A stretch of 7,741 nt of DNA from Planctomycetota bacterium (GTDB lineage Bacteria > Planctomycetota > Phycisphaerae > FEN-1346), in assembly GCA_026386995.1 (NCBI GenBank), contig JAPLMO010000003.1, forward strand, positions 1-7,741. The letters run 5' to 3'. The notes below the pieces were generated by a model that ran no database searches, had not been told where the DNA came from, and worked only from the letters and a program-made list of their open reading frames with translations. Below are positions 4,550 to 6,964 of this stretch, piece by piece. The position numbers were made by a program, and so were the translations under genes. Numbering within the stretch: the stretch's first letter is position 1; every line of letters begins with the position of its first letter.

Positions 4550-5890
4550 ATGTCGAAGGAATTTGTCGATCGTACGATGGAAATGGTCGTCGCCCGCAAT
4601 CCCGGCGAGACGGAGTTCCACCAGGCGGTCCGCGAGGTCGCCGAGTCGGTGGCAGGCGTCATCGACAAGAACCCGCAATTCGCCAAGATGAAGATCATGG
4701 ACCGCCTCGTCGAGCCGGAACGCCAGATCATGTTCCGCGTTCCCTGGACCAACGACAAGGGCGAGGTCCAGGTCAACCGCGGCTTCCGCGTCCAGTTCTC
4801 CACCGCCATCGGCCCCTACAAGGGCGGCCTGCGGTTCCACCCCTCGGTGTACCTGGGCATCATCAAGTTCCTGGGGTTCGAGCAGATATTTAAGAATGCC
4901 CTTACGACGACGCCCATCGGCGGCGGCAAGGGCGGCTCGGACTTCGACCCCAAGGGCAAGAGCGACGCCGAGGTCATGCGATTCTGCCAGGCGTTCATGA
5001 GCGAACTGTTCCGCCACATCGGCCCCGACACAGACGTTCCGGCCGGCGACATCGGCGTCGGCGGACGCGAAATCGGATTCATGTTCGGACAGTACAAGAA
5101 ACTCACCAACTCGTACACGGGCATCCTGACGGGCAAGGGCCTGGAGTGGGGCGGATCGCTCGTCCGGACCGAGGCCACAGGCTACGGCCTCGTGTACTTC
5201 GTCACGCGCATGCTGGAGGCGCGCGGCAAGTCGTGGAAGGGCCTGGATGTCGTTGTGTCCGGCTCTGGCAACGTGGCCATCTACGCCGTCGAGAAACTCC
5301 AGCAACTGGGCGCGCGGTGCGTCGCCATGTCCGATTCCAACGGCTACATCGTGGACCCGAAAGGCATCAACCTCGACACCGTCAAGCAACTGAAGGAAGT
5401 CGAGCGGGCACGCATCAAGGAATACGTGCAGAAGCACCCGTCGGCCAAGTATGTCGAAGGCTGCGACGGCATCTGGTCGGTCCCCTGCACGGTTGCGCTG
5501 CCCAGCGCCACGCAGAACGAGATCGACGAGGCGGCCGCCAGGAAACTCGTCAAGAACGGCTGCATCGCGGTGGGCGAAGGCGCCAACATGCCCTCGACGC
5601 CCGAGGCGATCAAGATTTTCCTCGATAACAACGTCAGTTTCGGCCCCGCCAAGGCCGCCAATGCCGGCGGCGTGGCCACGAGCGCCCTGGAGATGTGCCA
5701 GAACTCCATGCGTCTCTCATGGACCTTCGAGGAAGTCGATTCGCGCCTGAAACTCATCATGAACTCCATCTTCGAGCAGTGCACCAAGGCCGCCGAGGCC
5801 TACGGCCAGAAGGGCAACCTCGTCGCGGGCGCAAACATCGCGGGGTTCCTGAAGGTCGCCAGGTCCATGATGGCCCAGGGGCTCGTATAA
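4550..5890 (+). CDS. gdhA: Glutamate dehydrogenase, hexameric, probably NADP-dependent
   Basis: Interconverts 2-oxoglutarate plus ammonium and glutamate in the cytoplasm; in this subfamily usually the assimilatory, glutamate-forming direction. 446 residues, the normal length (E. coli GdhA has 447). Visible motifs: substrate-binding [10 protein letters not shown] with K91; catalytic [15 protein letters not shown] with K127; [16 protein letters not shown] with D167; [19 protein letters not shown] (195-213); nucleotide-binding SGSGNVA (237-243), with SDSNG (261-265) where NADP-type enzymes carry a similar SDSx[11 protein letters not shown] (341-350); [18 protein letters not shown] (365-382). The start is secure: GGAAGGAG lies 7 nt before ATG 4550. 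[16 protein letters not shown] differs from the common HPSVNLSIxKFLGFEQ at two positions, a minor variation. It is followed by a hairpin and, 93 bp on, by the NrpR-like gene on the same strand. Identity is nearly certain; NADP preference is inferred. Confidence 0.97.
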
Positions 5891-5925
5891 GAGTTGCTTT
5901 GACCGCCGATGTTCGGAATAATGGG

Positions 5926-5957
5926 TCGCTCGCCCCGGCCGCACGCGGGGCGAGCGA
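5926..5957 (+). terminator. Hairpin between gdhA and the NrpR-like gene, likely terminator
   Basis: A perfect 11-bp stem, TCGCTCGCCCC (5926-5936) and GGGGCGAGCGA (5947-5957), with a 10-nt loop, followed by TTCCCCTTT. The T-tract is interrupted, so termination may be partial. It begins 35 nt after the gdhA stop and ends 26 nt before the next start, so it could set the ratio of gdhA to regulator transcript. Confidence 0.6.
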
Positions 5958-5983
5958 TTCCCCTTTGACAACAGGCGATTCGC

Positions 5984-6964
5984 GTGGCGAACCTGGACAA
6001 CCAGCGCAAGATCATGGCCATCCTTCGCGTCCTCAACGACGCCGGCCGGCCCCTGGGCAGCACGAAGATCGCGCGGGGCCTCCGCTTGGCGGGCATCGAC
6101 CTTGAGCAGCGGATGGTCCGCAACTACCTCGACGCCCTGGATGCCGGCGGCCTGACCGTCAACCTCGGCCGCAGGGGCCGCGAACTTACGGACCGCGGAC
6201 GCCGCGAACTGGCCGCCTCCTTCATCATCGACAAGGTCGGCTTCATCGACGCCCGCGCCGACGAACTCGCATACAACATGACGCTGGACCTCGCGCGGCA
6301 CGCCGGCACCGTTATCCTGAACGTTTCCGGCATTCCGGCGGCGTACCTGGACGATGCACGCCGCATCATGGGCGGCGTCATCATGGCCCGCCTCGGCATG
6401 GGCCGTTTCGGCCTGATTACGCAGGCCCCGGAGGGCGTGCCCGGCCTGGCGATCACCGCCGGCGAGGCGGTCATCGGCACGGTCTGCAGTATCACGCTGA
6501 ACGGCCTGCTGCGCGCCGAGGGCGTGCCCACCGTCAGCCGCTTCGGCGGCCTTCTGGAGATCCGCGACGGCCAGCCCCTGCGTTTCACCCACATTATCGA
6601 GTATTCCGGCTCGACGCTCGACCCCATCGAGATATTCATCAAGGCCGGCATGACCAGCGTGCTGAAGGCGTCCAAGACCGGCAACGGCCTTATCGGCGCA
6701 AGTTTCCGCGAGGTTCCCGCGGTCGCACTGCCGCACGTCCGCAAGGTCATCCAGCGGATGGACGAGGCTGGCCTGTGCGGCACAGTCCTCGTGGGCGAGC
6801 CCAGCCGCCCGCTCGTCGAGATTCCCGTCGACCAGGGCCGCGCGGGAATAGTCGTCACCGCCGGCCTCAACCCCCTGGCCGCCGTCCAGGAAGCAGGCAT
6901 TCCCACCGAGAACCTGGCCCTGGCCCGCCTGACCGAGTTCGGCAGCCTCGTTTCCCTCGTTTGA
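5984..6964 (+). CDS. NrpR-like transcriptional regulator (winged helix + DUF128)
   Basis: 326 residues. Residues about 6-72 form a winged helix-turn-helix of the RNase R N-terminal type (NQRKIMAILRVLNDAGRPLG, STKIARGLRLAGIDLEQRMV, VNLGRRGRELTDRG). Residues about 80-318 are one NrpR effector domain (DUF128), with FIIDKVGFIDARADELAYNM, GLAITAGEAVIGTVCSITLN (154-173), PTVSRFGGLLEI (182-193), EYSGSTLDPIEIFIKAGMTS (206-225), GNGLIGASFREVPAVAL (233-249) and GIVVTAGLNPLAAVQEAG (288-305). In methanogens NrpR represses nif and glnA and is released by 2-oxoglutarate. Some archaeal proteins have two such domains; this one has one. The start is a GTG with only a weak AGGCG upstream; ATG 6014 would remove ten residues but shorten the first helix, so GTG is preferred. 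No nif or glnA gene is in view; gdhA is the only nitrogen gene beside it. Confidence 0.88.
   Translation: MANLDNQRKIMAILRVLNDAGRPLGSTKIARGLRLAGIDLEQRMVRNYLDALDAGGLTVNLGRRGRELTDRGRRELAASFIIDKVGFIDARADELAYNMTLDLARHAGTVILNVSGIPAAYLDDARRIMGGVIMARLGMGRFGLITQAPEGVPGLAITAGEAVIGTVCSITLNGLLRAEGVPTVSRFGGLLEIRDGQPLRFTHIIEYSGSTLDPIEIFIKAGMTSVLKASKTGNGLIGASFREVPAVALPHVRKVIQRMDEAGLCGTVLVGEPSRPLVEIPVDQGRAGIVVTAGLNPLAAVQEAGIPTENLALARLTEFGSLVSLV

Follow-up and report, generated by a model that had tools for sequence, protein, structure and literature searches.

The gdhA–nrpR locus

The window, by which we mean the whole stretch of 7,741 nucleotides that was analyzed, harbors two neighboring genes on its forward strand. 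The first, gdhA (4550–5890, + strand), encodes a 446-residue NADP-type glutamate dehydrogenase that matches PF00208 and PF02812; the NCBIfam model NF006929 (“NADP-specific glutamate dehydrogenase”) matches it with 766 bits (cut-off 536). The second (5984–6964, + strand) starts with GTG and encodes a 326-residue NrpR-type regulator, a type investigated chiefly in methanogenic archaea. The same-strand gap of 93 bp that a sequence-only reading had given for this pair was confirmed, running from the gdhA TAA codon (5888–5890) to the nrpR GTG. Upstream of both genes, 156 bp before the gdhA ATG, is a candidate operator with the sequence CGGCATCGCCCTGCCG (CGGCA-N6-TGCCG; 4378–4393, unstranded). The same tandem pair occurs in L001 and L002, the closest relatives found among genome contigs (86% and 78%, respectively, for nrpR and 90% and 89% for gdhA). 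Because the tandem pair is kept in both relatives, we regard the pairing as something other than chance. Three further ORFs lie on the opposite strand: a transposase-like frame cut by the window start (3–770; HTH_29, HTH_28, HTH_32 and HTH_23), a DUF5677 protein (1126–1899) and a DUF4328 protein (2190–3965).

The regulator comprises an N-terminal winged-helix DNA-binding domain (HTH_12, PF08461; residues 11–76, 6014–6211, + strand; 50.8 bits, cut-off 21.4) and a single NRD/DUF128 domain (NRD1_2, PF01995; residues 85–322, 6236–6949, + strand; 243.5 bits, cut-off 25). These matches bear out the architecture of a winged helix plus one DUF128 domain that had been read from the letters. In the AlphaFold model of the protein (mean pLDDT 88.5), the winged-helix part has winged-helix regulators such as CggR as its structural neighbors, and the NRD part matches MJ0159 (PDB 3nek) with 28–31% identity in the structural alignment. 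The domains, the 3nek match and the fold comparison thus support membership in the NrpR family, and some close homologues already carry the JGI name “global nitrogen regulator NrpRI”. The window protein has one NRD stretch only (residues 85–322), whereas NrpR of M. maripaludis has two NRD domains; single-NRD members also exist, and we do not treat two as a requirement.

The DNA between the genes can form a strong stem-loop (5923–5960, + strand) with perfect 10-bp arms (5927–5936 and 5947–5956); the folding energy of 5888–5983 is −43.3 kcal/mol (z = −3.14). A role as a simple terminator or attenuator was rejected, given that there is no clear T run and that the element is absent from the scanner’s list. 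The terminator reading was weakened further by the 43-bp gdhA–nrpR gap of L001, in which no comparable stem-loop was seen by eye. We also rejected a riboswitch or other known RNA, as Rfam returned no match at the gathering score.

Neighborhood of nrpR across the Planctomycetota

Of 392 genomes from the phylum of G001, 23 contain PF01995, as do 14 of 298 from its class. The union of these positives is 36 genomes (G001 being in both lists), all of which were opened, yielding 37 loci. PF01995 was found in four of eight genomes from the order of G001, none of them new; the order of G147 had two. In the 36 genomes, tblastn was used to locate gdh, nrpR, gltB, gltD and the GltB-like protein described below. 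All genomes compared are from Planctomycetota, and many of the assemblies are in fragments. A home-made scorer supplied the ORF calls, which were checked where we cite a family search or tblastn.

In 33 of the 36 genomes, nrpR has a gene for a glutamate-forming enzyme next to it or close by. The partner is an adjoining gdhA in 14, of which ten pairs are divergent (L042, L043, L044, L046, L061, L065, L067, L069, L070 and L072) and four tandem (L060, L071, L075 and L076). In another 13, nrpR directly precedes gltB in the same direction (L048–L059 and L074); gltD follows gltB in the eight of these loci where it was seen, and the contigs of the others end first. Five genomes have a PF01645 GltB-like gene of about 550 codons divergent from nrpR (L041, L045, L062, L063 and L066), and one (L047) has a gltD-like gene just upstream of nrpR and gdhA 2.5 kb away. 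No partner gene was found in the remaining three: the contigs of L006 and L073 are about 3 kb long, and that of L068 stops 137 bp after nrpR, with 7.8 kb devoid of a partner on the other side. At some 4,000 genes per genome, we roughly estimate that chance would place nrpR next to one given gene in well below 1% of genomes.

The PF01645 search of the GltB-like genes covered all but that of L062. In L041, L045, L063 and L066, the product is a stand-alone protein of about 550–610 residues that matches only about one-third of PF01645 (Glu_synthase); we predict it to be a glutamate-synthase-like enzyme. In each of these four loci, a dyad of the kind described below, or a variant of it, separates the gene from nrpR. 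The GltB-like gene of L062 (5494–7106), from G577, is split into four pieces that lie in different frames, and a glutamine synthetase match in the same genome (L172) carries two in-frame TAG codons. Assembly errors, decay or recoding may account for these broken frames.

When the partners were mapped as labels onto a tree of 38 NrpR sequences, 11 changes over eight labels were counted, as opposed to a mean of 22.1 after shuffling. Related regulators therefore keep their partners, yet across the tree gdhA, gltB and the GltB-like gene take each other's place, and the orientation changes as well. This variation in partner and orientation indicates that the pairing is more than inherited synteny. 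The nrpR–gdhA link is conserved, and the lack of a conserved neighborhood in relatives, which the sequence-only reading had named as grounds for refutation, was not observed. The notion of a module with gdhA holds for the 14 genomes above, but the module is not confined to gdhA, as gltBD or the GltB-like gene occupies this place elsewhere.

The distribution of glutamate dehydrogenase was examined through PF00208, which was searched in 30 of the 36 NrpR genomes. Among the 13 gltB-linked genomes, eight have only a large-frame match (920–1254 residues; 393 in G234, at a contig end), four have none, and G281 has a GDH of ordinary size that lacks the dyad (L134). From this pattern, nrpR tends to adjoin whichever glutamate enzyme the lineage has.

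G402, which belongs to the same order as G001, departs from this pattern: its nrpR (69%) adjoins a DegT-type gene and its gdhA is on another contig. In G607, nrpR is present twice. One copy follows gdhA; the other is divergent from a gene for a PPDK_N-domain protein, with an exact dyad with a 4-bp gap between these two. Proteins of this kind, about 870 residues long, recur near gdhA or nrpR (L060, 3911–6556; L061, 2532–5135; L069, 8838–11462; L070, 1–2340). The domain was identified by Pfam in the copies from L060, L061 and L069 and by blastp clustering in the cut copy from L070.

A candidate operator

To identify shared promoter elements, all 5-bp inverted repeats with gaps of 0–14 bp were counted de novo in 54 upstream regions from 37 sequences (the window and 36 loci). 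CGGCA-N6-TGCCG was the top dyad, occurring in 14 sequences; the N4 form came second (10), and the N5 form was level in third place (8) with GGCAA-N4, which overlaps the CGGCA-N6 form. In 30 shuffles, no dyad reached more than three sequences. Position 4378–4393 holds the only exact copy of CGGCA-N4-6-TGCCG in the window, and the dyad is found at the matching place upstream of gdhA in L001 and L002. The site thus falls in the region upstream of gdhA to which the sequence-only reading had pointed, although the 4380–4550 fragment named there for binding experiments would cut off the first two operator bases.

Exact sites are strongly concentrated. We counted 34 in 18,954 bp of DNA upstream of nrpR, gdh or the GltB-like gene (38 sequences, i.e., the 37 loci and the window), whereas the remaining 428,394 bp contain 10; the densities differ 77-fold. 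In total, 27 of the 38 sequences have an exact CGGCA-N4-6-TGCCG in place. All 13 gltB-linked loci have it, as do four of the five with the GltB-like gene (L041 has variants). Among the 14 gdhA-linked genomes, seven have the exact dyad and five have close variants (L065, L067, L069, L070 and L072); the gdhA start is cut off in L071, and neither the dyad nor a close variant was found at the divergent pair of L046 (G292). In L045 and L047, the dyad is at a gdhA that does not adjoin nrpR. The motif was first noticed by eye upstream of gdhA, and the gltB loci are therefore a partly independent check, though they are related to one another. No dyad was found upstream of either nrpR or gdhA in G402. 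The shared promoter dyad is probably an NrpR binding site.

Does the dyad accompany gdh genes irrespective of nrpR? For this comparison, we used 25 of 28 NrpR-positive gdh loci (one duplicate frame and two below the cut-off were left out) and all 30 NrpR-negative ones, and took the gdh 5′ end to reach from 350 bp upstream to 240 bp downstream of the longest ORF’s start. Ten NrpR-positive loci, including the dyad-bearing L124, and two NrpR-negative loci were dropped for having too little upstream sequence. The exact dyad occurs at 7 of 15 NrpR-positive and 0 of 28 NrpR-negative loci (Fisher p = 2 × 10⁻⁴), a figure that should be read knowing that the motif was derived from the same regions as were scored, that most of the dyad-bearing NrpR-positive gdh loci are among them and that the loci are related. 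With up to one mismatch allowed, the counts are 9 of 15 and 3 of 28.

The bare motif is a different matter. It is common in GC-rich genomes, where its frequency lies near that of a reversed-pattern control (161 vs. 142 in G001 and 125 vs. 123 in G002), and it is consequently informative only together with position. Defining a genome-wide regulon by the exact motif was rejected as too unspecific in GC-rich genomes (G001 and G002 as above; 69 vs. 41 in G169), with only partly better results in G607 (38 vs. 23) and G598 (49 vs. 8). Two of the 38 places in G607 are the gdhA and second-nrpR sites; of four further ones (L208–L211), three are in called ORFs and one precedes an fdhD-like gene. Relaxing the motif to two mismatches gave 15 matches in the window, compared with 8.8 expected, and 13 of 200 shuffles also reached 15.

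GGAA-N6-TTCC is the operator consensus of methanogen NrpR proteins. It was found in none of the 54 upstream regions, nor anywhere in the window when up to one mismatch was allowed. We take this consensus as a trait of that branch and not of the family.

The dyad at other nitrogen-assimilation genes

At glnA loci, PII loci and gltB loci that are not linked to nrpR, the dyad is rare (1 of 54). Searches of 13 NrpR genomes for each of the first two furnished 42 loci, 17 of the glnA type and 25 for PII. Three of the 42 hold a dyad copy (L179, L196 and L205), but L196 and L205 show one and the same site, inside the amtB ORF of G625 and 115 bp after its first possible start. The dyad was found before none of the PII genes of these genomes, and the 12 PF00310 loci, which come from 11 of 14 NrpR genomes and never lie on nrpR’s own stretch, contain no copy. 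The remaining case, L179 (1–3999, contig 33 of G147), has an exact CGGCA-N5-TGCCG at one of the two glnA-type genes of G147. This copy is inside the longest ORF, but alignment with nine others places it just before the likely real start; it immediately precedes a ribosome-binding-like stretch and the likely ATG, and a peptidase S15 ORF is divergent from the gene. The site could be a chance occurrence or a real extra NrpR target, and with it in view, NrpR may have targets beyond glutamate formation.

PII itself (PF00543) is present in 12 of the 13 NrpR genomes checked. We thus rejected the idea that NrpR replaces PII, a point on which the sequence-only reading, with its contrast to the usual PII control, needs correcting.

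Promoter geometry

The best hexamer pair in the 320 bp before gdhA consists of a weak predicted −35 element, CTTGCA (4432–4437, + strand), and a predicted −10 element, TATAGT (4455–4460, + strand). The −35 stretch is conserved in L001 and L002, where the −10 element reads CATAAT and TTAAAT, respectively. A stricter promoter scan of 4200–7100 found none. The window, L001 and L002 have a single full dyad each, whose first base is 83–85 bp from the end of the predicted −10 element, on its upstream side; a promoter placed against the dyad is poor in all three (ranks 170, 18 and 162 of 302). With the dyad of this clade placed ahead of the predicted promoter, one has to consider looping, activation or the use of a different promoter. 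Simple steric repression from the upstream dyad at the window locus, and with it the sign of control there, may be in doubt, given that the predicted promoter lies downstream.

Other gdhA promoters are arranged differently. In 7 of 14 gdh upstream regions (L042, L043, L060, L061, L067, L069 and L070), the best of 302 −35/−10 pairs ends 0–1 bp before the dyad. The dyad would thus cover the start site there, a repressor-like position. L047 ties for first place with a weak score over 106 positions only, and the other six upstream regions do not show the abutment.

The gap length may also vary with the gene. Seven gdhA loci (L047, L060, L061, L065, L067, L069 and L070) have a site with a 6-bp gap on the gdhA side and one with a 4-bp gap on the nrpR side, although five of the seven rest on variant or one-mismatch sites and the 4-bp-gap site of L047 is inside a called ORF before nrpR. 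The gltB loci with two sites (L049, L055, L056 and L058) show no clear gap rule.

Proposed mechanism and alternatives

The family of the window protein, its gene pairing and the concentration of the dyad at nrpR and at nrpR-linked glutamate-enzyme promoters emerged directly from the computations. From them we infer that the protein binds the dyad, that it represses and that its ligand is 2-oxoglutarate. In our preferred reading, to which we assign a probability of about two in three, a bacterial NrpR-type factor directly controls gdhA through the dyad at 4378–4393 and is most likely a local repressor of glutamate synthesis that 2-oxoglutarate releases. The NrpR-type protein would bind CGGCA-N6-TGCCG upstream of gdhA and, so bound, would repress glutamate synthesis locally. 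Accumulating 2-oxoglutarate would cause it to let go of the DNA; substrate pile-up would thereby lead to the production of GdhA, which would consume 2-oxoglutarate and ammonium. As both GDH and GOGAT consume 2-oxoglutarate, the 2-oxoglutarate-sensing loop proposed from the sequence is reasonable as a proposal.

The same wiring could serve another ligand, with the NRD domain sensing glutamate, glutamine or some other metabolite instead of 2-oxoglutarate. The branch is diverged, as the modest identity to MJ0159 attests, and its genes are mostly beside those of GDH or GOGAT. However, these two enzymes share 2-oxoglutarate as a substrate, and it is 2-oxoglutarate that PMC4902934 names as the NrpR ligand. 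We consider another ligand unlikely, if worth keeping in mind.

Alternatively, the same protein and operator could activate gdhA from the upstream site in the window’s clade, or switch between activation and repression. Activators often bind at such upstream positions, and the spacing of 83–85 bp is conserved in the three sequences. On the other hand, the dyad abuts the −10 element in seven other gdhA promoters, and L001 and L002 have, by eye, a CGGCA half-site just after the −10 element, a possible relic of a repressor site that the window lacks. Characterized archaeal NrpR is also a repressor (PMC9765008 and PMC4902934). Activation is therefore rather improbable in our estimation. That the dyad belongs to another regulator or structural element, with nrpR beside gdhA by inherited synteny and devoid of direct control, would fit L046 and G402, which have nrpR but no dyad, but is very improbable, since the dyad tracks nrpR over three kinds of partner (13/13 gltB, 4/5 GltB-like and 7/14 gdhA), stays with it through changes of partner and orientation and is missing at gdh in genomes that lack nrpR (0/28).

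Taking the 2-oxoglutarate-released repressor one step further, we tentatively entertain a broader generalization, on which we would not wager even odds: Planctomycetota may possess a single-gene NrpR-type 2-oxoglutarate switch, mainly for glutamate formation, that is carried beside the enzyme of the lineage (GDH, GltBD or the GltB-like protein) and has its own operator code, N6 at the enzyme promoter and N4 at that of nrpR. The variant sites among the seven gdhA loci, the position of the L047 site and the dyad before a glnA-type gene of G147 lower its probability.

Relation to known systems

That “certain Bacteria” have NrpR had been published by 2009 (PMC2723118); the same paper gives the archaeal regulon as nif, glnA, glnK-amtB, molybdate transporters and an alanine symporter. 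For M. maripaludis, PMC4902934 reports that 2-oxoglutarate releases NrpR. The methanogen proteins (NrpR of M. maripaludis; NrpRI and NrpRII of Methanosarcina) resemble the window protein in combining a winged helix with NRD and in their nitrogen-assimilation context, and their operator is likewise an inverted repeat with a 6-bp gap, as in the window’s copy. They differ in that the window protein has one NRD domain, and that the planctomycete half-site is CGGCA, not GGAA, with gaps of 4 and 5 bp also occurring. Furthermore, planctomycete nrpR is linked to GDH or GOGAT and its dyad is rare at glnA and PII genes (1/42), whereas the archaeal regulon given in PMC2723118 includes glnA and glnK-amtB. 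For MJ0159, a nitrogen repressor-like protein, the match of the solved chain is restricted to the NRD part, ahead of which the window protein has a winged helix.

Among bacterial systems, GltC of Bacillus is a LysR-family activator that is encoded beside a glutamate-synthesis operon and answers to 2-oxoglutarate. It is comparable to the window regulator as a local regulator next to glutamate-synthesis genes, but it comes from an unrelated family and activates. NtcA, PII and NtrC sense 2-oxoglutarate or nitrogen status; the signal is similar but the proteins are unrelated, and PII coexists with NrpR as noted above.

A full-text literature search returned, among the matches listed, no bacterial NrpR beside gdhA or gltB, no bacterial NrpR operator, and neither the narrowing to GDH/GOGAT nor the partner swapping nor the CGGCA operator; this negative is weak, as matches were judged by title and the start of the abstract and subscription papers were mostly outside the scope. 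The description of this control of gdhA as perhaps undescribed thus needs qualification: bacterial NrpR was already known (PMC2723118) and the NrpRI name is in use at JGI, but the GDH/GOGAT wiring and the CGGCA operator look new.

To our knowledge, little has been worked out about nitrogen control in Planctomycetota. If the preferred reading is true, a repressor characterized in archaea also functions in bacteria, where it would act at sigma-70-like promoters through a recoded operator, and its regulon has apparently been narrowed to the two routes into glutamate. Each such genome would then come with a prediction that can be tested, Planctomycetota would have a small metabolite sensor, and the loci would form a natural series for studying how one regulator follows a metabolic node and not one gene.

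Repeats in the window

Two copies of a 38-nt element, 95% alike and with self-complementary ends, lie at 898–935 and 6999–7036, and related sequence is found near 4147–4177 and 4278–4299. The element looks like a dispersed intergenic hairpin repeat. Finally, a long imperfect inverted repeat, recognized by eye, spans 4190–4276 (tttagccc...gtgaatacac / gtgtattcac...gggctaaa), roughly 100 bp before the candidate operator of gdhA.
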